33,171 nt of DNA from Clostridia bacterium (GTDB lineage: Bacteria; Bacillota; Clostridia; Christensenellales; Borkfalkiaceae), in assembly GCA_017467275.1 (NCBI GenBank), contig JAFTSN010000005.1, positions 1 through 33,171 on the forward strand. The letters run 5' to 3'. The notes beneath the pieces were generated by a model. The model was not told the origin of the DNA, ran no database searches, and worked only from the letters and a program-made list of their open reading frames with translations. Made by a program: the position numbers and the translations under genes. This document shows, one piece after another, positions 4,865 through 30,242 of this stretch (within the stretch, counting starts at the first letter, position 1; each line of letters begins with the position of its first letter).

Positions 4865-6064
4865 ATGTTGAAAAGGATGGGTATCGCGGTGCTCGGAACG
4901 GGTGATTTGGGTAAAGAGGTGTATCGTCTCTTTGATCGGAATCGGGAGTTTTATCTGAAAACGCAAAACGTCGAGTTCACCTTGGAGAGTGTGCTCGCGG
5001 AAAACGGCGGAGACGTGCCCGTAAAATGGGTGCCGACGGAAAAGCTTGCGGGCAATATTGCTGAGGTAATCGCGGATCCCGCCGTCGACGTCGTGATCGA
5101 CGCGCTTTCAGACGTGGAGCAGGCAAAGACCTATGCGCTCGCCTCGCTGCACGAGGGAAAGAACGTGGTGACGGCGAATGCCGAGCTTATTTGCCGATAT
5201 TTCTCCGAGCTTGAACGGGTTGCTAGGCGCAACGGTTGCGGCGTCTTTTTCGGCGCTTGCTGTTTAAGCGGTATTCCTGCCGTGCGTACACTTGCGGACG
5301 GTGTGCAGGCAGATAAGATTGCCGAAATTGCCTTAAACGTTCCCGATTTAAAAAAAGCGGGAAATAGGAACGGAGAACCTTACGCCGCCTATTGTCTGTC
5401 CGTTCTCGCGTCGCTTGCCTTTCACGTGCGGGTGGCGGTCGGGAAAATATTCCAAGATCTTGCGGCGGTCGAAAAAGCGGACGTTGAGCTCGGCAAAAAG
5501 TTTGGCTACGAATTAAAGACGCTCGCAATTGCCAAAAACACGGAAAAAGGCGTGGAGGCGCGCCTGCATCCCGTATTCGTTAAAAAATCCCATCCGCTTG
5601 CGGGCGTTGCGGAGGACGTGAGCGCCATTTGCTTGAAAGGCGAAAAGAGCGGCTGCTTGGTATTAAGCGGTAAAGGCGGCGTTTCCGCGACGGCGAGCGC
5701 GATCGTCAGCGACGTTTTGGGTGCGGCGACGCATTCAGAGCTCGGTTATGCCGTGGATCGGAATTTTGCTTCGTCTGATACGGGGACAAAGATTGTCAAC
5801 GATTTTAAAAGCGGCTATTATCTCCGCTTTAAATCCGTTGGCTCCGAGGGGCTTTTAAGTAAGCTTTCCGCCGTGCTTTCACGGGCAGGAATTTCCGTTT
5901 CAAGACTGGAGCAAAAGACGGGCGTAAGTCAGCTCGTCGAGTGGGAATCCGTGACCTTAGTAACCGAACAAAGCAGTGAAAACGCCATGAAGAATGCCAT
6001 TTCCAAAATCAAAAAGACGGGCGAAGTCACGCTTGAGGCGTTTGTCCGCGTGGAAGAGGACTGA
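4865..6064 (+). CDS. Homoserine dehydrogenase-like protein with ACT domain, catalytic core lost
   Basis: A 399-residue paralogue of homoserine dehydrogenase (aspartate-semialdehyde to homoserine, threonine/methionine pathway). The layout is N-terminal Rossmann fold (GTGDLG at 11-16, VVTAN at 101-105), a shortened catalytic domain with the family's ARLHPVF (232-238), HPLAGV (243-248) and Gly-rich closing segment, then a C-terminal ACT domain (about 318-395). Key residues are missing. The Lys after VVTAN is Ala106. The Glu of the usual EAxVxGxIP is replaced (the segment is FGACCLSGIP). The NGT-x-NYI and E-x-DP-x2-D-x2-G-x-D blocks are gone, the region 157-172 being far too short to hold them. 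Ordinary catalysis is unlikely; a regulatory or different dehydrogenase role is inferred. Ribosome site AAGGAG precedes the ATG. It sits between coaX and a PfkB kinase. Confidence 0.75.
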   Translation: MLKRMGIAVLGTGDLGKEVYRLFDRNREFYLKTQNVEFTLESVLAENGGDVPVKWVPTEKLAGNIAEVIADPAVDVVIDALSDVEQAKTYALASLHEGKNVVTANAELICRYFSELERVARRNGCGVFFGACCLSGIPAVRTLADGVQADKIAEIALNVPDLKKAGNRNGEPYAAYCLSVLASLAFHVRVAVGKIFQDLAAVEKADVELGKKFGYELKTLAIAKNTEKGVEARLHPVFVKKSHPLAGVAEDVSAICLKGEKSGCLVLSGKGGVSATASAIVSDVLGAATHSELGYAVDRNFASSDTGTKIVNDFKSGYYLRFKSVGSEGLLSKLSAVLSRAGISVSRLEQKTGVSQLVEWESVTLVTEQSSENAMKNAISKIKKTGEVTLEAFVRVEED

Positions 6065-18785: not shown

Positions 18786-19745
18786 ATGAATAAGGAAAGA
18801 AGCTTACAATTAAACAAACCGAAATTTGGTGGAAAATGGACGAAGTCGGACGTACAGGTGTTTTTAATGAGCAGCGTCGGACTCCTGTTTTTGATCGTAT
18901 TTTCCTATTTGCCCATGTTCGGTATCGTGCTCGCCTTTAAGGACGGAGATTTGCAATTAAATATCTTAAACGCAATTCTTCGTTCGGATTGGGTGGGGTT
19001 GGATAATTTTAAGGCGTTTTTTGTCGATCCCAATTTTTATTCCGTGCTTTGGAACACTCTGGGACTCAACATTTTAATGCTTTTGATTACATTTCCGATC
19101 ACGCTGATTTTTGCCCTTTTGATGTGTGAGGTCAGGCACCGCCGTTATCGCAATGCATTGCAGACGGTCGTGGCGTTTCCGCATTTTATCAGCTGGACAA
19201 TCTTTGCGGGCATGTTCATCGCCATGGCAGATATGAGTACGGGTATTCTCAATCCAATCTTGGAGGCGCTTGGGATCATGGACGCGAAAAATCCTTCGAA
19301 TCTTTTAGAGGCGAGATATTTTTGGTCGGAGATCATTATTTGCTCGGTGATCAAGGACACGGGGTGGAGTTGTATTATTTACGTGGCGGCAATCGGCAAT
19401 ATTGATCCCTGCTTATACGAGGCGGCAAAGCTGGACGGCGCAAACCGCGTTCAGGTGGCGCTTAAAATTACGCTTCCCATGATTAGCTCGACGATCACGG
19501 TGTTTTTGCTTCTTGCGATCAGTAGGCTTTTATCCAATTCTTTCGAGCAGTTCTATGCGTTCCAGAATATTACCAATCTCGATAAGAGCGAGGTGATTGC
19601 GACCTACGTATATAAAATGGGCATTAGTAACCGTCGTTATTCGTATACGAGTGCCCTCGGTCTTTTCAATTCGGTGGTGGCGATAGTTCTTTTAGCGGGA
19701 AGTAATTTTGTTAGCAAAAAATTGACGGGAAGGGGGATCTTGTGA
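18786..19745 (+). CDS. Sugar ABC transporter permease, LplB-type
   Basis: One of two membrane subunits of an oligosaccharide importer, 319 residues with six transmembrane helices. The binding-protein-dependent permease signature (EAA loop) reads Tyr-Glu-Ala-Ala-Lys-Leu-Asp-Gly-Ala at about 214-222 and contacts the ATPase. A soluble N-terminal tail of about 22 residues precedes the first helix, as in LplB/YtcP-group permeases that work with very large lipoprotein binding proteins such as the one at 21916. GGTGAAGG precedes ATG, and the stop overlaps the next permease by four bases. No ATPase gene is present, so a shared MsmX-like ATPase is expected. Confidence 0.92.
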   Translation: MNKERSLQLNKPKFGGKWTKSDVQVFLMSSVGLLFLIVFSYLPMFGIVLAFKDGDLQLNILNAILRSDWVGLDNFKAFFVDPNFYSVLWNTLGLNILMLLITFPITLIFALLMCEVRHRRYRNALQTVVAFPHFISWTIFAGMFIAMADMSTGILNPILEALGIMDAKNPSNLLEARYFWSEIIICSVIKDTGWSCIIYVAAIGNIDPCLYEAAKLDGANRVQVALKITLPMISSTITVFLLLAISRLLSNSFEQFYAFQNITNLDKSEVIATYVYKMGISNRRYSYTSALGLFNSVVAIVLLAGSNFVSKKLTGRGIL

Positions 19746-20629
19746 TGCGCGGTAAGATAGTCGGAAAACGCCGCAAGCCTCTTCAGGCGGCAGAATTCGT
19801 TATTTATCTTTTTATGGGGCTGTTTGCTCTAGTGACAATCTATCCTTTTTGGTATACCGTTGTCGGCTCTTTTTCGGACGGTATGGATTATCAAGGCGGC
19901 GGCGTTTGGTTGTTTCCCCGCATATTTACGACGGCGAATTACAGCGTTGTATTTGCGGATGCGAGGCTTTGGACTGCGTTCGGTACGACGATTTTAAGGA
20001 CGTTGGCGGGGACCTTTCTATCCCTCGTCGTGACCTCGTGTACTGCCTATGGCATGAGTCGACCTAACTTGAAGTTTAGACGCGTGCTTCAATGGCTGAA
20101 TATGTTCACGATGTTTTTTAGCGGCGGTCTCATTCCCTATGTTCTGATTATTAATATGCTAGGGCTATATAATTCCTTTTGGGTATACGTTATCCCTTCA
20201 GCATATTCCGTTTACAATATGATTATTATTCAGAACTTTTTCAAAGGGATACCGACAGAACTGCATGAGGCGGCGGTTTTGGACGGTGCGTCGGAGTTCC
20301 GCATCTGGTGGAATCTGTTTATTCCGCTTTCGGGTTCTGTGCTTGCAACCGTTGCGCTCTGGTGTGCGGTTGGGCATTGGAATAACTATATGCAGACCAT
20401 GCTCTATACGAATAATCCTAAGCTTATTACCTTGCAGTATTATTTGATGCTGCTTATTAAAGAGGCGAACGTGGAATTCGGGGAGCTTGGTGATAATATT
20501 ACATCCCAGGTGACGGCAAGAACGGTTTCGTTTGCCGCAATCGTGGTGGCAAGTCTGCCGATTTTGTGCGTGTATCCGTTTGTGCTCAAGCATTTTGCGG
20601 GTAGCGTTATGATCGGTTCATTAAAATAA
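19742..20629 (+). CDS. Sugar ABC transporter permease, YtcP/LplC-type
   Basis: The second membrane subunit, 295 residues, MalG-like, with six helices. The EAA loop reads His-Glu-Ala-Ala-Val-Leu-Asp-Gly-Ala near 178-186. The long stretch after the first helix (Gly-Ser-Phe-Ser-Asp-Gly-Met-Asp-Tyr-Gln-Gly-Gly-Gly-Val) matches the LplC/YtcP group. It starts at GTG 19742 or the ATG at 19745, with AAGGGGG upstream serving either. It is coupled to the preceding permease by overlap. Substrate is inferred from context to be a mucin-type oligosaccharide. Confidence 0.92.
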   Translation: MMRGKIVGKRRKPLQAAEFVIYLFMGLFALVTIYPFWYTVVGSFSDGMDYQGGGVWLFPRIFTTANYSVVFADARLWTAFGTTILRTLAGTFLSLVVTSCTAYGMSRPNLKFRRVLQWLNMFTMFFSGGLIPYVLIINMLGLYNSFWVYVIPSAYSVYNMIIIQNFFKGIPTELHEAAVLDGASEFRIWWNLFIPLSGSVLATVALWCAVGHWNNYMQTMLYTNNPKLITLQYYLMLLIKEANVEFGELGDNITSQVTARTVSFAAIVVASLPILCVYPFVLKHFAGSVMIGSLK

Positions 20630-20712
20630 TAAAAGCAAATAAACGTCAGATAAATAGCGCAATGGCTCAAAAATTTCGCGGTCGAAAATTAGCAGTCGAG
20701 AGTAATATTAAT

Positions 20713-21696
20713 ATGGAATTAGCGGAAATTTTCACAGATAATATGGTTTTTCAGGCAAACAAGCCGCTTCGCTTTTGGGGGCGAGGCAGTGGAAATATTA
20801 GTGTTACGTTGCATGATAAGACCTACAAGAAAGAATGCCTTGAGGGAAAATGGGTTATGGAATTACCCTCTCAATCTTACGGAGGTCCTTTCGATATTCT
20901 GTTGGAATTGCAAGGAGAGAAAACTGTTTTAAAAAATATTGCTTTCGGTGATGTCTTTCTTTGTGCGGGGCAATCGAATATGCAATTTACGATTGCTGAA
21001 GAAAAAGGTGCATGCACTATAATGGATAATAACCGCATTCGCTATTTCGTTTCGGATAGAATTGAACAGTACACTGGACAAAAAAGTGCCGATGGTTGGA
21101 AGATTTGCAAAAACGAGGAAGTGGGGACGTGGTCGGCTTTAGCTTTGCACATAGCTGAAAATTATCAGAAAAAGAAAAATGTATTTGTGGGGATAGTTGG
21201 TTGTTTTCAGGGGGCTTCTGTTATTAGAAGTTGGATTCCCGAAAAATATCTTGACGAAAGTGTTTATATATCCATGGAGGAGAGACATATCGACAGTATC
21301 AAGCCAAAATATTCGGCATGGAATAGCGATTCGATATTATATAAAAAAACCTTTTTGCCGATTACGCCGTTTTCTTTTAAAAGCGTAATCTGGTATCAAG
21401 GAGAAAGCAATACAACCGTTGCGGAGAGCAGAGTATATACGAGTTTGCTTTCGAAATTGATTTTTTCATGGAGAGAAGCCTTACGGGACGAGGAATTATC
21501 GTTTGTTATTGTGGAAATATGCGATTTTGACGAGCGAAATGACGAGGGTTGGCGATCGATTCAGAGGTGTCAGAAAACGGTAGGAAAAATTGTGCCGAAT
21601 GTGATAATCGTAACAAGCAAAGATGTTTGTGAACATAATCATATTCATCCTCAAAACAAGGAAAGACTGGCCGAAAAAATATTTTGTTTGCTGTAA
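20713..21696 (+). CDS. SGNH hydrolase, sialate O-acetylesterase-like
   Basis: A 327-residue enzyme expected to remove O-acetyl groups from sialic acid or other glycans. The SGNH blocks are clear: Gly-Gln-Ser-Asn-Met at 86-90 with nucleophile Ser88, Trp-Tyr-Gln-Gly-Glu-Ser-Asn at 227-233, and the catalytic-dyad region with His312 (His-Pro-Gln-Asn-Lys). A small beta domain (1-75) with the family opening Ile-Phe-Thr-Asp-Asn-Met-Val-Phe-Gln precedes the catalytic fold. Start at 20713 was chosen because it matches that opening; an ATG at 20662 has no ribosome site. There is no signal peptide, so it acts inside on imported sugar. The gene is visibly more AT-rich than its neighbours, suggesting separate acquisition. 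Confidence 0.88.
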   Translation: MELAEIFTDNMVFQANKPLRFWGRGSGNISVTLHDKTYKKECLEGKWVMELPSQSYGGPFDILLELQGEKTVLKNIAFGDVFLCAGQSNMQFTIAEEKGACTIMDNNRIRYFVSDRIEQYTGQKSADGWKICKNEEVGTWSALALHIAENYQKKKNVFVGIVGCFQGASVIRSWIPEKYLDESVYISMEERHIDSIKPKYSAWNSDSILYKKTFLPITPFSFKSVIWYQGESNTTVAESRVYTSLLSKLIFSWREALRDEELSFVIVEICDFDERNDEGWRSIQRCQKTVGKIVPNVIIVTSKDVCEHNHIHPQNKERLAEKIFCLL

Positions 21697-21915
21697 GCTT
21701 TTTAAATGAATTTTTTTAATGAGCACAGGAAGAAATAATGAGTTACCTTTGGAAATGTTGATGACGCTAGCGTTTACGAATGGCAATCTATAAGAGACGA
21801 AATTTTTTAATGTGGGAAAAATTATTTATTTTTAGTTTAGGTGCCCGAATAATAAAAAAGAAAAGTATTTATGCTTGAATACTTTTTTGATAAAATATTA
21901 TAAAAGGAGTAAATT
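21697..21915 (+). other. AT-rich intergenic stretch with terminator-like hairpin
   Basis: No gene is seen in these 219 bases. AAAAGTATT (21861-21869) pairs with AATACTTTT (21878-21886), followed by more T, giving an AT-rich terminator-like hairpin. A TTGAAT at 21875 with TATAAA at 21899 (18-base spacer) could be a weak promoter for the binding-protein gene. Partial termination here would set different levels for the binding protein and the permeases. Confidence 0.4.
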
Positions 21916-23832
21916 ATGAGAAAAAGATTGAAGAAAATTTCAGTGCTGTTGCTTTCAGCTTGTTTGTTCTTGCCTACGGTAGGTTGCGGGGGCATGAGTA
22001 GTGCTTCGGGCTCGAGTTTGAATTACCCCGATTACGGTTACGCAAACGCGGATTCCGATAGTTGGAAGCAAATCGAGGATCTGGATAAAACCGTTCAAGT
22101 GACTTGGTATGTCGACAGCTCGACTCTCACGGTCAGCAATGAGCTCATTGAAATAGTCAAAGACAAATTTAATATTGCGATCACGCCCAGAAAGCCTGTG
22201 AGTGACGATGGATCGGAGCTTTCTAGCTATATCATCAACAATACTCTACCCGATATTATAACCGTTTCCGATTATACAACGATTGTACAGCTTGGACAAC
22301 ACGAATACGTATATCCGTTGCAGGATCTTGCGGCGAAATACGCGCCATCGATGCTCGAGCGTATTCCTCAAGACCTTGTTGATTTTTGGGGCGATGCGAA
22401 CGGAAAAATCTACGGTTGGCCCGCAAACTTCTTTTCAAACGCCGATCTCGCTTCGCTCGAAAAGACGGGCAGTCATCTTATGTCCAATTACGGCTTGGTC
22501 GTACGAGAAGACTATTTAGAGGCGTATTTATCGGCTTATCCGTCGGCGGCGGATAGTGCAATGTCGCCGAGTGAGTTTATTTCTATGTGCGAATGGGTCA
22601 AGGACACGTATCATTTAGGAGACAATAACCCCACAGTGTGCCTTGAGAATTTCACCACCGATTCAACGACGGAGGGGAGCCGTGCGATTACCGCTTTGAG
22701 CGAATTTTTTGCCGTACCGCTAGAGGATAGCGAGGGGAATCTTACCTACCGTTGGGAGCAGGAGGAGATGAAAGAGGTCATGCTCTTTTTAAACGAGCTT
22801 TATAGAAAACGTCTCGTTATTTCGGGCAACCTTTCCGCGACCGCCGCGCAGGTGGGTAGCTATATCCAAAACGGTTTGCCCTTTGCCGTGGTGGGGGCAA
22901 CGCAGAACTATCAGTCCTATTTCCGAAATCTTTATATCAACACACTCAATTCTAAAGATTACGAGGAGCCTGTGAATTACGTTCCCATTGTGATTACCAA
23001 TGCGGCGGGAGATATGCCCGTTTTGGGAAATATAGCGGGGCGCGGAAACCGTCTCACCATGATCTCGGGGAATTGCGAACGCGTGGATCGCGTGATTAAG
23101 CTTTTTGATTGGCTGGTAAGCGAAGAGGGACATCGTGAGACCTATTTCGGGCAAGAGGGCGAGACCTACACAGTGGAAAAAGCAGTTGGAACGACGGAAA
23201 ACATTACCGTGAACGGCGAAAGCGTTTCCTATACCTATCCGTATGGGCAGATGAAGTGGACGGATTCCGCTTGGAATGCGTATCAGCACTATAATTTCAC
23301 CAAGCTTAAGATTCACACCTATTCGTATTTACATAATCCGCTCTATGCCTATCTTACGGACGCAACGGGTAAGGGTTACGGCTATATTACCATGGCGAAT
23401 TATATGAATTATAATCATAAGGCTGCTTATATGCCCTTGACTTATAATAAAATTCCATTCAAATTCAATCTTGATCCCAATCATTCGGACTATACAAAGA
23501 TGATTGCCCTCCAATCACAACTTGAGTTGCATTGGATACAGTATATTTCAAGAATCATTATGGCACCGACGGCGACGGAGGCGTCTTCATTATACGATAA
23601 AGCGCTTCAGGATGCGCAAAAGCAGGGAAGTGAATCGCTTCGGGCATTCCAAAACGCTTCTTTCCTTGCGTTGAAATCAAAAATGGGCTTGACGAACGCA
23701 TGGCCGCCGAATGTAGGCGAAATACCGACGACGATGCCGCTTCGCGGAGACAGAAGCTATGAGCTTGAGGTGCCCGCGAATGTGAACTATGAGTCGTATA
23801 ACGGCGGAAATAAGGTCTATACCGTCGATTGA
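21916..23832 (+). CDS. Large solute-binding lipoprotein of the sugar ABC importer
   Basis: A 638-residue extracellular binding protein. The signal has Arg/Lys at 2-7, a hydrophobic core and a lipobox ending Thr-Val-Gly-Cys24, so Cys24 should be lipidated. The mature part begins with a Ser/Gly linker, then the type of two-lobe fold found in LplA/YtcQ-like family 1 binding proteins. These are unusually long (500-650 residues) and pair with LplB/LplC-like permeases. The conserved Trp/Tyr-rich ligand region around Trp-Tyr-Val-Asp (about 59-62) and the Asn-Thr-Leu-Pro-Asp-Ile stretch are visible. Ribosome site AAAGGAG is strong. Together with the permeases it should capture a host-type oligosaccharide. 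Confidence 0.9.
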   Translation: MRKRLKKISVLLLSACLFLPTVGCGGMSSASGSSLNYPDYGYANADSDSWKQIEDLDKTVQVTWYVDSSTLTVSNELIEIVKDKFNIAITPRKPVSDDGSELSSYIINNTLPDIITVSDYTTIVQLGQHEYVYPLQDLAAKYAPSMLERIPQDLVDFWGDANGKIYGWPANFFSNADLASLEKTGSHLMSNYGLVVREDYLEAYLSAYPSAADSAMSPSEFISMCEWVKDTYHLGDNNPTVCLENFTTDSTTEGSRAITALSEFFAVPLEDSEGNLTYRWEQEEMKEVMLFLNELYRKRLVISGNLSATAAQVGSYIQNGLPFAVVGATQNYQSYFRNLYINTLNSKDYEEPVNYVPIVITNAAGDMPVLGNIAGRGNRLTMISGNCERVDRVIKLFDWLVSEEGHRETYFGQEGETYTVEKAVGTTENITVNGESVSYTYPYGQMKWTDSAWNAYQHYNFTKLKIHTYSYLHNPLYAYLTDATGKGYGYITMANYMNYNHKAAYMPLTYNKIPFKFNLDPNHSDYTKMIALQSQLELHWIQYISRIIMAPTATEASSLYDKALQDAQKQGSESLRAFQNASFLALKSKMGLTNAWPPNVGEIPTTMPLRGDRSYELEVPANVNYESYNGGNKVYTVD

Positions 23833-23864: not shown

Positions 23865-26800
23865 ATGAAAGTTTTCTTAAAAAAGGCGAAAGTACTTTTG
23901 TTTTTCGCGTTCTGTTTTGTTTTCGGTTTGGGAATTTGGTTTTCCGCTGTGCCCCAAAAAGCAGGGGCGGACGAGCCGACGCCCGTTGCCGTCACGAAAT
24001 GGGACGAGGGCGCGGTGTCCGTTTGGTACGGAAACTACAGCGGCTCGCAGATTGCGTGGTTCGATAGCGTTCAGTTTACGAGAAACGGCGCGGTAGGCGC
24101 GCATTCGGGTATTCAGCTCAACGGAATCGATTATACATTTACGCAAGAAGAACTTGCGACGAAAAGTTTGTTTATCCGTTTGAGTTCGGTGTCGCAACAG
24201 CCCGTGATGTACGTGCGTTTAAAACGCGATAGCAGCACGGAGATGTATCCGATTGCAACGCTTACGGACGTTCGCTTGATCCATGCGGGCGCAAACGGCG
24301 GCGGGGGCGCATGGCGTGTGGAGCAGGCGACGACCGCTACCAATACGATCAAGCTCACGCAGGCGACCTCAAATGTCACGACGGCGGGACAGTATGCGTA
24401 TTATAGCTTTAGCGGATATCTCGTTATGCCGCTCACGCAATTCAATACATCCGCGCTGACCGAGGGGTTTAAGCTTACAGATATCAGTATCTACGGCTTT
24501 GACAACGGAAACTTTGTCCGTGTGAACGCGGGCGAGGTCTATGTCGGCGATACGGCGTCTGCGACGATCGGCGGAACATTTGATCCCGCTGCGGCAAATG
24601 CGGGAACGACGAAGATTTATACGCCGACGACGAACAATTTCTCGGTGTATAACAAAGCCGACAACACGACGGTAAAACACGTAAAGAAAGGTACGACCAC
24701 GTTAAGCCGCTACTATTCGGGTACGGCGTATGCGGACACGAATATATATCTGACCTCACCGAAGAGTCTGATCAAATCGGACGATAGCGGGAGATATATC
24801 GATACGGACGAGGTAAAAGGCATCACGCTGACGGTGGATAACACGAACGGCGGGGATATCAAGGGCTTACAGCTTCGTGTTTACGACTATCTGACGGCGC
24901 CGAGCTCGGGCTCGAATTTCCGTTATTTGTTTGATAAAAGCAAGGCTTACGTTTTGAAAGACGGAACGGACGTTTGGACGACGCAACAGGCGAACATGAT
25001 TCCCGCGGGCTTTAAGGGAAAGATTTATCTTGCGTTCGATACGACGACTTTCAGCTATGTGAATGGCACGATAAATGCTCTGACCTCGTCGAATAAGCTC
25101 AACCCCGTTTTACGACTCTACTTGAATCAAGTGAGCACGGACGCGGTAATTATTTCCGATTTCGGCATGGTGACGGGCGACGTTCCTCAAGTCACGTTGG
25201 AAAAGGGAGAAAACGTCTCTGAAATGACGCTTTCCGCGCCCTATCTGATAGACGGGAATAAGGTCAGCGTGAAAGCGACGGCGGCGGAGCATTACCGCGT
25301 AAGCTCGGTCAAGATCAATGGTACGCCGATTGACGCCGCCGCGCTTGAGGCGATCGTTTCCGAAAACGGCTATTCGTTTACGGCGAGCGCGGATACGTCG
25401 GTTTTGGTGGAGGCTTCGCCTGTGGATTACTCGGTGAAATACGATTTGGATGGCGGCACGCTCTCCGAGGAGAATGCGGCAAGCTTCAACGTGACGAGCG
25501 ATATCGCACTCGGTTCGCCCTCTAAGCTCGGATACGTGTTTACGGGCTGGTACGTGGTTTCGGAGGGGAGCGTTACAAGCCGCTCGGTTTCCCGTCTCGA
25601 CGATTCTGTTTTGGACGCGTTAGAGAACGGTAAGCTTACTTTAAAAGCCGTTTATACGCAAAAGACGACGTATACCGCCACCGCAGAGTCTGTTTCGGGT
25701 GGTAAGATCAGCTTTGACCCTGCGAGCGGTACCGTGATTGAGGATATGTCCTGTACGGTATATTTCCGCCCTGACCGCTATCATAAGCTGGTTTCCGCAA
25801 GCATCAACGGTCAGGATGTGACCGACGAGCTTGTAGACGGAGCGTATACCGTTTCGAGCGTGACGCAAAATATTACTGCGGACGCGGAGTTTGCTTCTTA
25901 CGATACGATCGCGTTGACGGCGGACAGAATCAATGTTTGGAACTATGCCTATTCGGGGAGCTTCTATTCCGCAATCGACGGCGTGAGTTATGAAAAGAAT
26001 ATTCTTGTGAACGGCGTCTCGGGCGTCACTTTAAAGACGGAGTCCGTGGCGATCCCTTCAAACGGCGTAATCGATATGGAGATCCACGTGCCCTCGGGCT
26101 CGCAAAAGCTTTCCTTCCTCTTTAAGGTCGGGGAGAGCGCGCTTTCTTTGAAAGACGGTGAAGAAGTCTCGTTCAAAGGGGTAAACGGCGAAGAAAAAAC
26201 GCTTTTGATCGAAAACGGGAAGCTTACGCTTGCGACGACCGCAGTCCGTGAAACGGGAGCTTGGTATTATCTGGGGTGTCTCGGTACGCTTTCCGTGCCC
26301 GTTTCCGCATTGGACGGCGAAGCGGTAGGGGACTTAAAAGAAGTGACCGTCTTTTCAACGGGCACCGCCGATAACGCGTTCCGCTACACGGTCGGGGAAA
26401 TCTCCGTGGGAGAAACGGCGGTTCGCCAAGCGGACGGGGAATACTCCGTTTACGATCCCGACGGGATCTTAACGGACGGCGATGTTACGGTCGGCTACGT
26501 GAAAGCGGGGGAATTGACCGTTTCGCAGAACATGACCTACAATGCGACTACGGAAAAATACAGCTATGCAAACGGGCATATTTATTTCAGCTTGCCCGAG
26601 GAGACCTATCATACGGAGAACGTGAACGGTACGGATTACGTCTATGCCGATCTTAACGAGATCAAGGGGATATCTTTCCGCGTGAAAAACGAGAGCTCTG
26701 TCGCTACGGCGGGTCTGTTCTTCTACGTTTACGATTATATCTCGGGTTCGCCCGGGACCTATGCCACGGGCAGATCGACGATTTCAACGAGTCAGTGCAT

Positions 26801-27605
26801 TATGATCTCGGATGACGGTGTGATCAATAATAAGGCAGATCCGACTAAAATCCCCGCAGGCTTCTCCGGCGAAATTATTTTGCCGTTCACGGCAGAGGTG
26901 TTCAAAAACCAGCCAAATGAATTCCCCTCAAAGATCAAGCCCATTGTTCATCTTACGGTAAACACGGTCAATGAAAAATCGGTGATTCTCGAGGACGTTA
27001 CAGTACATTTGAACGAGGGCGTGTGGGCGACGCATAACGTTGATGTCACAGTCACGAGCGGCGGAAACGTGCAGTTAAATACTCCTTCGGTTTTGCATGG
27101 CGGCACGGCAACGGTTACCGTGAGTCCGAGTAAGGGCTATAATATCGTTTCTTGCGTATATTATGATAATCAACTTACGCAGCACGCGTTCGAGCTTGAC
27201 GAAAACGGTACTTTCACACTTGAAAATATCACGGGAGACGTTTCTTTTAGCGTGACGTTTGAGGCGATCGAGTACAGCGTGAAGTATGAACTCAATGGGG
27301 GCGAGAATAACGTGGCGAATCCGACCACGTACTACGTTTACAGCGCAAACGCGATCCTTGCCGATCCCACGAGAAAGGGCTATAAATTTGCGGGCTGGTA
27401 CACCGATGCGGAATTTAAAAACGCCGTTTCCGTTCTCGCAAAGGGCACAACGGGCGACGTGACGCTGTATGCGAAATGGGAAAAGACGAGCTCCAAGGGC
27501 TGCTCTGGTTCGACAAACGCCTTTGCGGGAATTATGGCGATCTGCGCGGTTGCAGGCGTTGCGATCGCTTTGAAAAAACGGAGAGATTTGCATGAAGAAA
27601 ATTAA
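23865..27605 (+). CDS. Large surface protein with duplicated module and Listeria-Bacteroides repeats
   Basis: A 1246-residue exported protein. A signal peptide (1 to about 35, ending Lys-Ala-Gly-Ala-Asp) precedes a first long module (about 50-600) and a second copy (about 690-1210). Each copy has beta-sandwich-like segments opening Val-Trp-x(3)-Tyr-Ser-Gly-Ser. A second domain has Lys-Gly-Ile-x-(Leu/Phe) and Ile-Pro-Ala-Gly-Phe-x-Gly. A third, short repeat resembles bacterial repeat domains. Each copy closes with a Listeria-Bacteroides (Flg_new) repeat starting Tyr-Ser-Val-Lys-Tyr at 522 and 1137. The C-terminus is Lys-Gly-Cys-Ser-Gly, a hydrophobic helix and Lys-Lys-Arg-Arg. Start 23865 has GGGAG upstream; the earlier ATG lacks a signal sequence. 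The beta domains may bind glycans (inference). It overlaps the sialidase gene by 14 bases. Confidence 0.82.
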   Translation: MKVFLKKAKVLLFFAFCFVFGLGIWFSAVPQKAGADEPTPVAVTKWDEGAVSVWYGNYSGSQIAWFDSVQFTRNGAVGAHSGIQLNGIDYTFTQEELATKSLFIRLSSVSQQPVMYVRLKRDSSTEMYPIATLTDVRLIHAGANGGGGAWRVEQATTATNTIKLTQATSNVTTAGQYAYYSFSGYLVMPLTQFNTSALTEGFKLTDISIYGFDNGNFVRVNAGEVYVGDTASATIGGTFDPAAANAGTTKIYTPTTNNFSVYNKADNTTVKHVKKGTTTLSRYYSGTAYADTNIYLTSPKSLIKSDDSGRYIDTDEVKGITLTVDNTNGGDIKGLQLRVYDYLTAPSSGSNFRYLFDKSKAYVLKDGTDVWTTQQANMIPAGFKGKIYLAFDTTTFSYVNGTINALTSSNKLNPVLRLYLNQVSTDAVIISDFGMVTGDVPQVTLEKGENVSEMTLSAPYLIDGNKVSVKATAAEHYRVSSVKINGTPIDAAALEAIVSENGYSFTASADTSVLVEASPVDYSVKYDLDGGTLSEENAASFNVTSDIALGSPSKLGYVFTGWYVVSEGSVTSRSVSRLDDSVLDALENGKLTLKAVYTQKTTYTATAESVSGGKISFDPASGTVIEDMSCTVYFRPDRYHKLVSASINGQDVTDELVDGAYTVSSVTQNITADAEFASYDTIALTADRINVWNYAYSGSFYSAIDGVSYEKNILVNGVSGVTLKTESVAIPSNGVIDMEIHVPSGSQKLSFLFKVGESALSLKDGEEVSFKGVNGEEKTLLIENGKLTLATTAVRETGAWYYLGCLGTLSVPVSALDGEAVGDLKEVTVFSTGTADNAFRYTVGEISVGETAVRQADGEYSVYDPDGILTDGDVTVGYVKAGELTVSQNMTYNATTEKYSYANGHIYFSLPEETYHTENVNGTDYVYADLNEIKGISFRVKNESSVATAGLFFYVYDYISGSPGTYATGRSTISTSQCIMISDDGVINNKADPTKIPAGFSGEIILPFTAEVFKNQPNEFPSKIKPIVHLTVNTVNEKSVILEDVTVHLNEGVWATHNVDVTVTSGGNVQLNTPSVLHGGTATVTVSPSKGYNIVSCVYYDNQLTQHAFELDENGTFTLENITGDVSFSVTFEAIEYSVKYELNGGENNVANPTTYYVYSANAILADPTRKGYKFAGWYTDAEFKNAVSVLAKGTTGDVTLYAKWEKTSSKGCSGSTNAFAGIMAICAVAGVAIALKKRRDLHEEN

Positions 27606-29211
27606 GTATTGGATTCTTTGTCTGTTGATGCTTGCGGTTATTCCGTGCGCTATGCCAAGAACGTCGGCACAGGCTAAAATGGTTGCACCATTGCCCGATA
27701 ACTATAAGGGAACGGGAGAGTCCTCCAACTCTCCCGCCGTGGTGCTCCGCGCCGACGAAAAACTTCTTGAAACGCCGATTGACGAGGCGGAGGAGGTGGC
27801 GGGCGAGACCTATTCTCCGTCCGATCGGAAATATGCGGGAATGCCGAGCATTGCCCGCACGGGAAACAGACTTTGGGCAACCTGGCGAAGCGGTTATACG
27901 TGGGAGGGAAAGTATAATTATTTCCCCATCGTATATAGTGAAGACGACGGCGAGACATGGGTGGATCCCTATTTTATCGTCGATCATCCCGATGCCAAGG
28001 GGAGCGGAATCGGCGTGGGAACGCCCGAGCTTTGGACGGATCCCGACGGAAACTTATGGCTCTTCTACACGACGGGCGGCGTTTGGGCTATTAAATTTAC
28101 GGGTGCAGACGGCGACGTTTCAAAGATTACTTGGGCGACGAGCCATATCATCTACGAGCACCTGATCGCCAAAAAACCTACGGTGATTAAGAATGCCGAG
28201 GGGCAAGAAGAATGGATGGTAATTTGTTACAGCACCTCTAATGCGGGCTTGGGGCTTACGTCTACGGCGGCGTTCGTTTCGACGGACAAAGGTGAATCTT
28301 GGACGGAGCGCGGCAGAGCGTTCACGGATGCGACGAACCTTCGTAAATACGCCGAAGCAAACGTCTACCAGACCTCGGACGGTACACTTTATCAAGTTTG
28401 CCGTCTTGACGGTGGCGGCGGGGGATTGGAGCGTTCCGCGTCCTATGATTACGGCAAGACGTGGTCATCGTTCGAGAGATATCTTGGAGAGCCCTTTTCA
28501 GGACCTGCCTCCAAGCCGCATTATCTCTCTTTGGGCGATGGCAAATTGTTGGCGATCAATCATGCGAGCGAAACCTCGCGCACTGCGCTCACGGCATATC
28601 TTTCCGAGGACGACGGAAAAACCTGGCAATATAAGCTTCTCTTGGATGACAGAGAGGACGTTTCCTATCCCGACGTGGCGTATGAGAGAGGAAAGATATA
28701 TATTGTCTACGACAGAGACCGTGCGGGCGCGCAGGAAATTAGGCTTGCGCGGATTACCGTGGAGGATATCAAGGCGGGGAAGCTCGTTTCGGATTCTTCG
28801 GCGCTTCGGTTGCGGCTCTGGCAAAATTCCGAGCTAAAGGATATTGTCTCCGTGCAGGAGGAATTGCCCGAGGTGCTTTCGGTGGCGCTTGGAGCAAAGC
28901 GCGAGGCGGCGCTAAAGAGTCTGCCTACCACTCTTCATGTGACCGATGAGGACGGAACGGTTTACACGCTAACAGGGAGCTGGTATTTGCCCGTCAGTTT
29001 CAGCACAGAAAAGGCGGCGAGTTATACGGCGCAGTTCCGTACTTCCGCGCTTCCCGAGAGCTTGCAGGACGCTTACGGTAAACTGGTTGTGACGGTTTTA
29101 ACAAAGAAAGAGGATAAGGGCTGTTCGGGTGCATTGACGGGACTTTCCGCTATTGCGGGGATTCTTCTTTTGGGCGCGGCTCTTTTGTGGAAAAAACGGA
29201 GTAAGATATGA
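27592..29211 (+). CDS. Secreted BNR/Asp-box sialidase-like protein
   Basis: A 539-residue exported beta-propeller protein, probably an exo-alpha-sialidase or relative. The signal peptide is residues 1 to about 28 (Thr-Ser-Ala-Gln-Ala-Lys). Four Asp boxes (Ser-x-Asp-x-Gly-x-(T/S)-Trp) are visible: Ser-Glu-Asp-Asp-Gly-Glu-Thr-Trp, Ser-Thr-Asp-Lys-Gly-Glu-Ser-Trp, Ser-Tyr-Asp-Tyr-Gly-Lys-Thr-Trp and Ser-Glu-Asp-Asp-Gly-Lys-Thr-Trp. Arg residues after Ala-Thr-Trp and the late Ser-Tyr-Pro-Asp-Val-Ala-Tyr stretch could form part of the sialidase site, but I cannot confirm a complete Arg triad. After the propeller comes a small beta domain (about 420-505) and the same C-terminus as the preceding protein: Lys-Gly-Cys-Ser-Gly, helix, Lys-Lys-Arg. 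It is translationally coupled to both neighbours by overlaps. Confidence 0.82.
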   Translation: MKKIKYWILCLLMLAVIPCAMPRTSAQAKMVAPLPDNYKGTGESSNSPAVVLRADEKLLETPIDEAEEVAGETYSPSDRKYAGMPSIARTGNRLWATWRSGYTWEGKYNYFPIVYSEDDGETWVDPYFIVDHPDAKGSGIGVGTPELWTDPDGNLWLFYTTGGVWAIKFTGADGDVSKITWATSHIIYEHLIAKKPTVIKNAEGQEEWMVICYSTSNAGLGLTSTAAFVSTDKGESWTERGRAFTDATNLRKYAEANVYQTSDGTLYQVCRLDGGGGGLERSASYDYGKTWSSFERYLGEPFSGPASKPHYLSLGDGKLLAINHASETSRTALTAYLSEDDGKTWQYKLLLDDREDVSYPDVAYERGKIYIVYDRDRAGAQEIRLARITVEDIKAGKLVSDSSALRLRLWQNSELKDIVSVQEELPEVLSVALGAKREAALKSLPTTLHVTDEDGTVYTLTGSWYLPVSFSTEKAASYTAQFRTSALPESLQDAYGKLVVTVLTKKEDKGCSGALTGLSAIAGILLLGAALLWKKRSKI

Positions 29212-30242
29212 ACAGAATTAAATTAGTACACTTGGATTCTCTTTCTTGCGAGGCGATTTTCCGCATTGCGCCTAACGGCGATTATGTAATCATTTCGCAG
29301 GTCGGTGACGTAACCGAGCCCGCCCCCCAAAATCGTGTACATCTTTTCAGGAGTACCGATAAGGGCGAGAGCTGGTCGAAAGGTGAGAGTATCTATCCTG
29401 AGGACGGCAGAGCCGTATATTTGACGGAGGTTGCCGTCAACGGACAGGACATGTACGTGTTCGCGCAGATACACGATGGAGCTTTTCTAGATTGGGATTG
29501 CGTCGTTCTGCATAGTGCGGACAGCGGGTATACGTGGGAAAACCTCGGACGAGTGCCATGTTTTGAGCGGTCCTTTGTGTTTATCCGCAGTGCAATTCGT
29601 TTGAAAAACGGGGCAATCATGCTCTCCTATCATAACTACGAGGTCTCCGAAGAGGAGAACGAGCGCCTGAAAAGAGAGGGGAAGCTGATTGTCCATGCCG
29701 ATCTCGAGAGTGTGGAGACGGGTACGATCGTCAGCTACGACGAGGGCAAAACGTTTGAAAAATGCAAAAAACCGTTTATAATTCCGCTTTCGACGCCCGA
29801 AGGGAAGAGGCTTTGGCAGTGGACGGAGCCTACACTTATGGAGCTGAAGGACGGCAGGATTGTTATGCTTATCCGCATAAACGGTACGGGATATCTTTGG
29901 CGTAGTGAATCGTGCGACGGAGGCATGAGCTGGAGTGAACCCGTTCGGACGGATATTCCAGGACCCAATAATAAGCCCAAGCTTATCCGTCTGCCAGACG
30001 GAAAAATCGCACTTTTAAACACGCCCAATTCCAAATTGGGGCTTCGGCAGCGTTATCCGCTCACGGTTTGGATCAGCGACGATGAGCTTGAGAGCTTTTC
30101 GTATAAGCGTGTGATTGCGGACATGCCTGGGGCATATTCCTATTCGGACGGTGTTCCATCTCCTGATGGTAAGCATATTCTTTTTGCGTTTGAATTCAAT
30201 CGACACGATATTTATTTTGTCGATCACGAAATAGAAACGTAA
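29208..30242 (+). CDS. Cytosolic BNR-repeat sialidase-like protein
   Basis: A 344-residue six-bladed-propeller protein of the sialidase superfamily (BNR_2-like) without a signal peptide or membrane segment. Asp-box sequences: Ser-Thr-Asp-Lys-Gly-Glu-Ser-Trp, Ser-Ala-Asp-Ser-Gly-Tyr-Thr-Trp, Ser-Tyr-Asp-Glu-Gly-Lys-Thr-Phe and Ser-Cys-Asp-Gly-Gly-Met-Ser-Trp. A Trp-Thr-Glu-Pro-Thr-Leu segment and the C-terminal Tyr-Ser-Asp-Gly-Val-Pro are typical of putative active-site blades. Its start overlaps the stop of the secreted sialidase-like gene (ATGA). Being inside the cell, it should act on imported glycan fragments; sialic acid is likely but other sugar acids are possible. It is the last gene of the operon, followed at once by a strong terminator. 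Confidence 0.82.
   Translation: MNRIKLVHLDSLSCEAIFRIAPNGDYVIISQVGDVTEPAPQNRVHLFRSTDKGESWSKGESIYPEDGRAVYLTEVAVNGQDMYVFAQIHDGAFLDWDCVVLHSADSGYTWENLGRVPCFERSFVFIRSAIRLKNGAIMLSYHNYEVSEEENERLKREGKLIVHADLESVETGTIVSYDEGKTFEKCKKPFIIPLSTPEGKRLWQWTEPTLMELKDGRIVMLIRINGTGYLWRSESCDGGMSWSEPVRTDIPGPNNKPKLIRLPDGKIALLNTPNSKLGLRQRYPLTVWISDDELESFSYKRVIADMPGAYSYSDGVPSPDGKHILFAFEFNRHDIYFVDHEIET

Follow-up and report, generated by a model that had tools for sequence, protein, structure and literature searches.

In the MYXO-CTERM/myxosortase system of Myxococcus, sorting by a CPBP protease acting on a cysteine-type tail was shown in what the publication itself describes as the first report of its kind (PMC11980579). 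According to the same publication, myxosortase cannot cleave as usual once the conserved cysteines are changed, and lipidation before the cut is a proposal without proof (PMC11980579). Here we describe a cysteine-containing tail in a 33,171-nucleotide stretch of DNA (the window; contig JAFTSN010000005.1 of assembly GCA_017467275.1, positions 1 to 33,171 of the forward strand) from a Clostridia bacterium of the order Christensenellales and the family Borkfalkiaceae, where it ends two neighbouring proteins, one of 1246 residues and one of 539. We consider it reasonably probable that this tail serves a Clostridia lineage as a tripartite C-terminal sorting signal of the cysteine type, provisionally named 'GC[GKS][SG]-CTERM', and that it is processed by a member of one CPBP subfamily, which we call CPBP-T.

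Both window genes lie on the plus strand and overlap by 14 bases. The first (23865..27605) encodes a secreted surface protein of 1246 residues with the InlB/Listeria-Bacteroides repeat (PF09479) and a signal-peptide-like N-terminus (approximately residues 1-35; 23865..23969), and it ends in a Lys-Gly-Cys-Ser-Gly motif at residue 1211 (27495..27509), a hydrophobic helix (approximately 27513..27572) and the basic end KKRR (27573..27584), followed by DLHEEN. The second (27592..29211) encodes a secreted BNR/sialidase-like protein of 539 residues (PF13088, E = 3.2e-25), also with a signal-peptide-like N-terminus (approximately residues 1-28; 27592..27675), in which the same motif stands at residue 509 (29116..29130), before a helix (approximately 29131..29190) and the basic end KKRSK (29191..29205). 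The C-terminal sequences are KGCSGSTNAFAGIMAICAVAGVAIALKKRRDLHEEN in the 1246-residue protein and KGCSGALTGLSAIAGILLLGAALLWKKRSKI in the 539-residue protein. Signal peptides were called by a rule of our own, not by SignalP, that looks for a basic n-region, a hydrophobic core and a Shine-Dalgarno sequence. The sequences agree with an earlier note on this DNA, which had described both proteins as ending in KGCSG, a hydrophobic stretch of about 20 residues and then either KKRR or KKRSK, with LPxTG in neither tail; a single LPFTA in the 1246-residue protein lies outside the tail. A match to an already named CTERM model would have counted against that note's reading, but none of the NCBIfam sorting models scored as high as its cut-off, either for the window proteins or for the two isolated tails. 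The nearest was LPXTG_anchor (TIGR01167), with 15.0 bits on tail 2 alone against a cut-off of 15.9, and for MYXO-CTERM (GC_trans_RRR, TIGR03382) no match was reported on the window proteins.

The genome assembly (1.55 Mb, 79% complete) was searched for further tails. Apart from the two sites in the window, a narrow DNA-level search for KGC[S/T-like]G hit a single place, and it showed no tail. A wider pattern matched 101 places against 109 for a reversed-pattern control and was rejected as a tail finder; because it gave no excess, a hidden Markov model (HMM) was used instead. A profile built from the two window tails gave 10 matches in the genome and a 12-tail profile gave 18 (E ≤ 0.011), all of them at the extreme C-terminus of open frames of 413-1621 residues; with later profiles the matches numbered 20 and 19, and the extra ones, which start past the motif, were left out. 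Gly-Cys was present in 18 of the 18 tails, an invariance that is partly due to selection since the selecting HMM contains GC, and the distance from the Cys to the first basic residue was 20-24 residues. Within the bodies of these proteins (14,073 residues) the GC dipeptide occurred 11 times and [KSGT]GC[GSKN][SG] 0 times. The shared Gly-Cys tail is more than chance.

The tail is thus not confined to the two proteins on which it had been noticed, and when it was checked whether it always sits at the C-terminus of signal-peptide proteins, all 18 tails were C-terminal and 16 of the 18 proteins had a signal-like start. One of the remaining two is truncated by a contig edge, and the other has a signal-like start in another frame just upstream (L068, minus strand, near position 5810, on genome contig C13), where the frame break may be real or come from assembly. 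Pfam assigned BNR to six of the 18 bodies and SASA (sialic-acid-esterase) to three, the window pair included; the other bodies matched LRR, phosphoesterase (Metallophos), Big_3 or InlB-type domains, or no domain. The earlier idea that the tail keeps glycan enzymes on the surface therefore fits the 9 proteins with BNR or SASA and not the other 9. Two of the tail proteins form a tandem pair of about 1615 residues each (L071 4912-14613, minus strand, genome contig C23); their N-termini are similar, both match BNR and Big_3, and the pair seems to have arisen by duplication. The same genome also encodes a secreted protein of 2679 residues (L272 2326-10362, minus strand; genome contig C4:34325-42362) that has an ordinary non-GC anchor and a long cytoplasmic end, and that offers a natural contrast to the tagged proteins. 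When named sorting models were compared with the 18 tails, 13 families matched at E ≤ 10 and none did so on more than 6 tails. The LPXTG model matched 6 (best E = 0.021), PEFG-CTERM one (E = 3e-4) and MYXO-CTERM one (E = 2.1), while Synerg-CTERM was absent from the 13.

To place the tail in its lineage, we searched 245 genomes of the class with the 18-tail profile and obtained 10 matching genomes at E ≤ 0.01. GC tails were shown in two of these, both in the window's family: its own genome and G234. Apart from G175, which was not read, the other eight matched past the motif only or were non-GC by eye. Among 201 genomes of the family 89 matched the tail profile, and they span 15 of the 18 genera. 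Of 297 genomes sampled from the order, 46 matched a 43-tail profile (25 with GC tails by eye, 3 non-GC and 18 not read), the GC tails falling in families f1, f82, f90, f91, f100 and f102. The tail is common in the family, present in some other families of the order and found hardly elsewhere in the class sample. In 92 tails from the genome and its relatives, a set chosen by Gly-Cys, the core reads [K/G/S]-G-C-[G 63%, K 15%, S 10%]-[S 60%, G 34%], so that the residue after the Cys is G, K or S in 88% and the next S or G in 94%; a linker rich in P/G/E/D/T/S precedes the core and a K-rich end (K:R 1.9) follows. When GC was not required, and proteins were taken by a signal-like start, one C-terminal transmembrane segment and a basic end, GC was present in 59 of 64, a count drawn from regions mostly chosen for holding a tail. 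Two of the five non-GC anchored proteins still had a Cys in place (ACSGG and SCVSS). These observations support well the earlier suggestion of a sorting or lipid-anchoring signal as far as sorting or anchoring is concerned, the tail being carried by many proteins per genome, at the C-terminus, behind signal-like starts, with near-fixed spacing and across the lineage.

A candidate for the processing enzyme came from a search with PF02517 in 37 genomes picked as having or lacking tails. CPBP-T is one CPBP (Rce1/CAAX-type) subfamily, separated from the other CPBPs by a clear gap (at least 156 against at most 74.5 bits), and PF02517, whose cut-off is 22.4 bits, gave 61.7 and 60.3 bits with the two CPBP-Ts scanned. 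By Pfam it is assigned to the CPBP/Rce1-like proteases, with the catalytic-type residues EExxxR...HxxN...H conserved: E150, E151, R155, H188, N191 and H232 are invariant among 18 CPBP-Ts, and the corresponding residues are invariant in 36. An AlphaFold model of CPBP-T has a mean predicted local distance difference test score of 81.7, and a sequence search of solved structures with CPBP-T returned nothing relevant. In the cultured Pumilibacter intestinalis CLA-AA-M10 (G601, identical CPBP-T sequence) the gene lies at L302:5584-6579 (NZ_CALPCH010000003.1); this genome has 7 tail matches, one of which was read as a GC tail.

Comparison with the curated myxosortase models (Mrt_core NF040914 and MrtJ/S/P/C/A) gave no score at cut-off among the CPBP-T members listed, 7 of the 18 in full. 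For the members listed, scores reached at most 31.6 of 100 bits with Mrt_core, 17.2-38.6 bits with MrtS (cut-off 130) and 22.5-33.8 with MrtJ (cut-off 75), and Mrt_core matched 13 of the 18 CPBP-Ts weakly (best E = 1e-7). The generic CPBPs of the lineage scored 24.9-34.3 bits with MrtS and 20.0-27.7 with MrtJ, a first and a second of them having MrtJ scores of 23.5 and 21.9. A special kinship of CPBP-T with myxosortases was not upheld, four generic CPBPs scoring alike (the MrtJ scores of CPBP-T are slightly higher and its MrtS scores mostly lower). Because its scores are weak and about equal to those of generic CPBPs, CPBP-T is not classed as a myxosortase.

The evidence that connects this subfamily with the tail is co-occurrence, in which CPBP-T was counted at E under 1e-29 and weaker matches (4 family genomes) were left out. 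In the 37-genome panel, all of the 18 tail genomes except the window's, hence 17, had CPBP-T, against 3 of 19 no-tail genomes. Generic CPBPs were rejected as partners of the tail, since in the same panel they showed no difference (17 of 18 tail against 18 of 19 no-tail genomes). The larger samples are given in the order both, tail only, CPBP-T only and neither, with family tails uncurated and with p-values that are inflated by shared ancestry. Across the family (201 genomes) the counts were 74/15/23/89 (p = 2e-19), and in the 130 genomes at least 90% complete they were 49/5/14/62 (odds ratio 43; p = 3e-17). CPBP-T was found in 35 of 36 such genomes with at least 2 tails and in 19 of 19 with at least 5; at any completeness, these figures were 53 of 60 and 29 of 31. 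For the order sample (297 genomes), the curated table, in which 18 unread and 3 non-GC of the 46 matching genomes are counted as tail-negative, was 19/6/5/267, and the uncurated one 19/27/5/246 (p = 2e-13). Outside the window's family, with tails judged by eye, the same sample gave 11/5/3/255 (p = 1e-13). The association was also seen within genera g1 (family sample), g2 and g4 (order sample), where a stratified exact test gave p = 6e-4, one g4 genome being entered as tail-negative as its match was read as non-GC. Together, these results show that the tail co-occurs with CPBP-T, strongly in both the family and the order, and that generic CPBPs do not.

Several findings weigh against CPBP-T as the enzyme that processes the tail. 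The search of the genome assembly to which the window belongs returned no CPBP-T; this assembly has the highest tail count listed, and only two CPBPs in it, both generic, exceeded the Pfam cut-off. A synteny look there found tuf intact on contig C4 with no CPBP-T adjoining and a PotD-like neighbour unmatched, a result of limited weight because the position of CPBP-T differs between species. Incompleteness of the assembly may explain this absence. However, 7 of 10 tail-matching genomes of the window's genus that are less than 90% complete also have no CPBP-T, which exceeds the expectation of about 18% from incompleteness, so that part of the genus may truly be without CPBP-T and use another enzyme. 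GC tails without CPBP-T occur in the f90 genomes G458 (97% complete), G502, G535 and G549 and in the f82 genome G450 (94%), which may process them with a different enzyme. In the opposite direction, CPBP-T without a detected tail occurs in 23 of the 201 genomes of the family. Genus g1 taken alone gave p = 0.12, and the co-occurrence tests carry no control for genome size as a confounder. Tail genes and CPBP-T are not regularly linked, and the myxosortase scores of CPBP-T are, as noted above, as weak as those of generic CPBPs. Finally, CPBP-T is the best candidate among CPBPs, the sole protease class profiled. The earlier note had placed the protease outside the window and had named CPBPs among the types to look for; co-occurrence supplies CPBP-T as a candidate of that type, one which the window's own assembly does not show.

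Three observations belong beside these. The f90 and f82 tails without CPBP-T lie at loci L144, L141, L142, L138 and L151. In G213, G257 and G413, which have CPBP-T and no detected tail, no GC tail stood beside CPBP-T in the stretches examined. A motif search of 40 tail regions revealed no constant protease neighbour of the tail genes, only three scattered CPBP-motif hits.

The exceptions would be expected if the tail is a real sorting signal served by some other protease (another CPBP, a rhomboid, an exosortase-like enzyme or a sortase), with CPBP-T correlating through a shared lifestyle. The 18 tails of the window's genome, without CPBP-T in the assembly and with its two generic CPBPs, speak for such an enzyme, as do the four f90 genomes and the f82 genome. 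The strong association of CPBP-T with the tail in two samples, repeated within the pooled genera and missing for generic CPBPs, speaks against it, and NCBIfam holds several myxosortase families (MrtC, MrtP and MrtZ). A single type of signal may have its own enzyme in each lineage, which would leave CPBP-T valid elsewhere. We regard another protease as unlikely, without its being far-fetched.

Processing by CPBP-T would proceed in four steps, the first two read from the protein sequences. An N-terminal signal peptide would direct export by Sec, and the C-terminal helix would then act as a stop-transfer segment, leaving the basic end inside and the Gly-Cys just outside the membrane. Co-occurrence and homology suggest that CPBP-T, as a glutamic-type protease, would cut near the Cys and remove the helix, probably, by analogy with MYXO-CTERM/myxosortase, after lipidation of the Cys. 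A lipid attached to the newly formed C-terminus could then, again by analogy, hold the enzyme or adhesin at the surface behind the P/G/E/D/T/S-rich linker. The proposal assumes CPBP-T in the window's own species, where it was not seen. In its full form, it describes a cysteine-based sorting system of Bacillota in which an Rce1-like glutamic intramembrane protease trims the GC[GKS][SG] tail, probably after lipidation, and a C-terminal lipid holds sialidase-like enzymes and adhesins; this complete version we offer as tentative. If true, it would give a lineage of gut Clostridia a bacterial counterpart of glycosylphosphatidylinositol (GPI) or CAAX anchoring that does not depend on LPXTG sortases.

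Alternatively, the tail could be a plain single-pass anchor that stays uncleaved, its Cys conserved for some other reason, for instance S-acylation or the formation of a disulfide where the protein leaves the membrane. A hydrophobic helix and a basic end suffice for anchoring, and the 2679-residue protein described above shows that this genome does use an ordinary non-GC anchor. Such an anchor, however, has no need of Gly-Cys, of near-fixed spacing or of a consensus kept lineage-wide over differing domains, nor of a co-occurring intramembrane protease, and we find it quite improbable. That the tail reflects merely the common ancestry of two neighbouring genes, or chance, has next to no probability left: the two genes are adjacent and overlapping, but their proteins match different Pfam domains (a comparison by domain, not by alignment), the tail recurs on 16 other proteins, whose bodies match LRR, SASA, BNR or phosphoesterase or have no assignment, and its family-wide matches, together with the 18 in the genome, refute this explanation.

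The genes that flank the two tail proteins (18786-23832 and 29208-30242) include a second BNR protein (Pfam) without a signal peptide. They also include two sugar-type ATP-binding cassette (ABC) permeases, a SASA-like esterase that likewise lacks a signal peptide, and a binding lipoprotein, all recognised by eye; the tail proteins and these transport, esterase and BNR genes probably form one glycan-use cluster. The solute-binding lipoprotein (21916-23832, plus strand) has the N-terminal lipobox LPTVGC-GGMSS. Its TVGC-GG shares the letters Gly-Cys-Gly with the tails, and the tail resembles a mirrored lipobox, which we record as an observation only.

We found no description of the tail or of the tail/CPBP pairing among the open-access titles and starts of abstracts listed. 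What appears new is the combination, in Bacillota, of a C-terminal sorting signal of the Cys type and a candidate enzyme of the CPBP family, the general logic being known from MYXO-CTERM/myxosortase. A paired signal and enzyme would extend CPBP sorting to Bacillota, in mostly uncultured, largely gut-derived Clostridia, and would suggest how these bacteria keep sialidase-like and esterase proteins on their surface. It would also supply a simple HMM with which to find part of the surface proteome in metagenomes, and would assign a function to one orphan CPBP subfamily. Pumilibacter intestinalis, as a cultured carrier, makes the pairing testable.

Among the described systems, the tail and CPBP-T resemble MYXO-CTERM and MrtX of Myxococcota, which have a tripartite tail with a GC-type motif and an invariant Cys, a CPBP (Rce1-like) protease, and dozens of targets per genome; the targets are proteins with a signal peptide, and many act as hydrolases or adhesins at the surface (PMC11980579). 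They differ from it in belonging to Bacillota, in a K-rich rather than R-rich end and in GC[GKS][SG] in place of GCGC; unlike myxosortase, CPBP-T reaches no Mrt cut-off among the members listed. A Cys-containing CTERM paired with a CPBP protease is likewise described for JDVT-CTERM/MrtJ (PMC11980579). By their NCBIfam names, MrtS (Synerg-CTERM) and MrtA (CGP-CTERM) are CPBP partners as well. Synerg-CTERM has a Cys, and CGP-CTERM is paired with MrtA. In contrast to Synerg-CTERM/MrtS and JDVT-CTERM/MrtJ, CPBP-T scores below both cut-offs among the members listed, and the Synerg-CTERM model is unmatched by the 18 tails. GlyGly-CTERM/rhombosortase shares the short motif, helix, basic end and intramembrane protease (PMC11980579), whereas the motif here contains a Cys and the candidate is a glutamic protease instead of a serine (rhomboid) protease. 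LPXTG/sortase, itself a system of Bacillota, is alike in its tripartite C-terminal signal on Gram-positive surface proteins and in a weak HMM similarity that comes from the helix and the basic end, and differs in that the window tails are without LPxTG and have a Cys in place of Thr-Gly.

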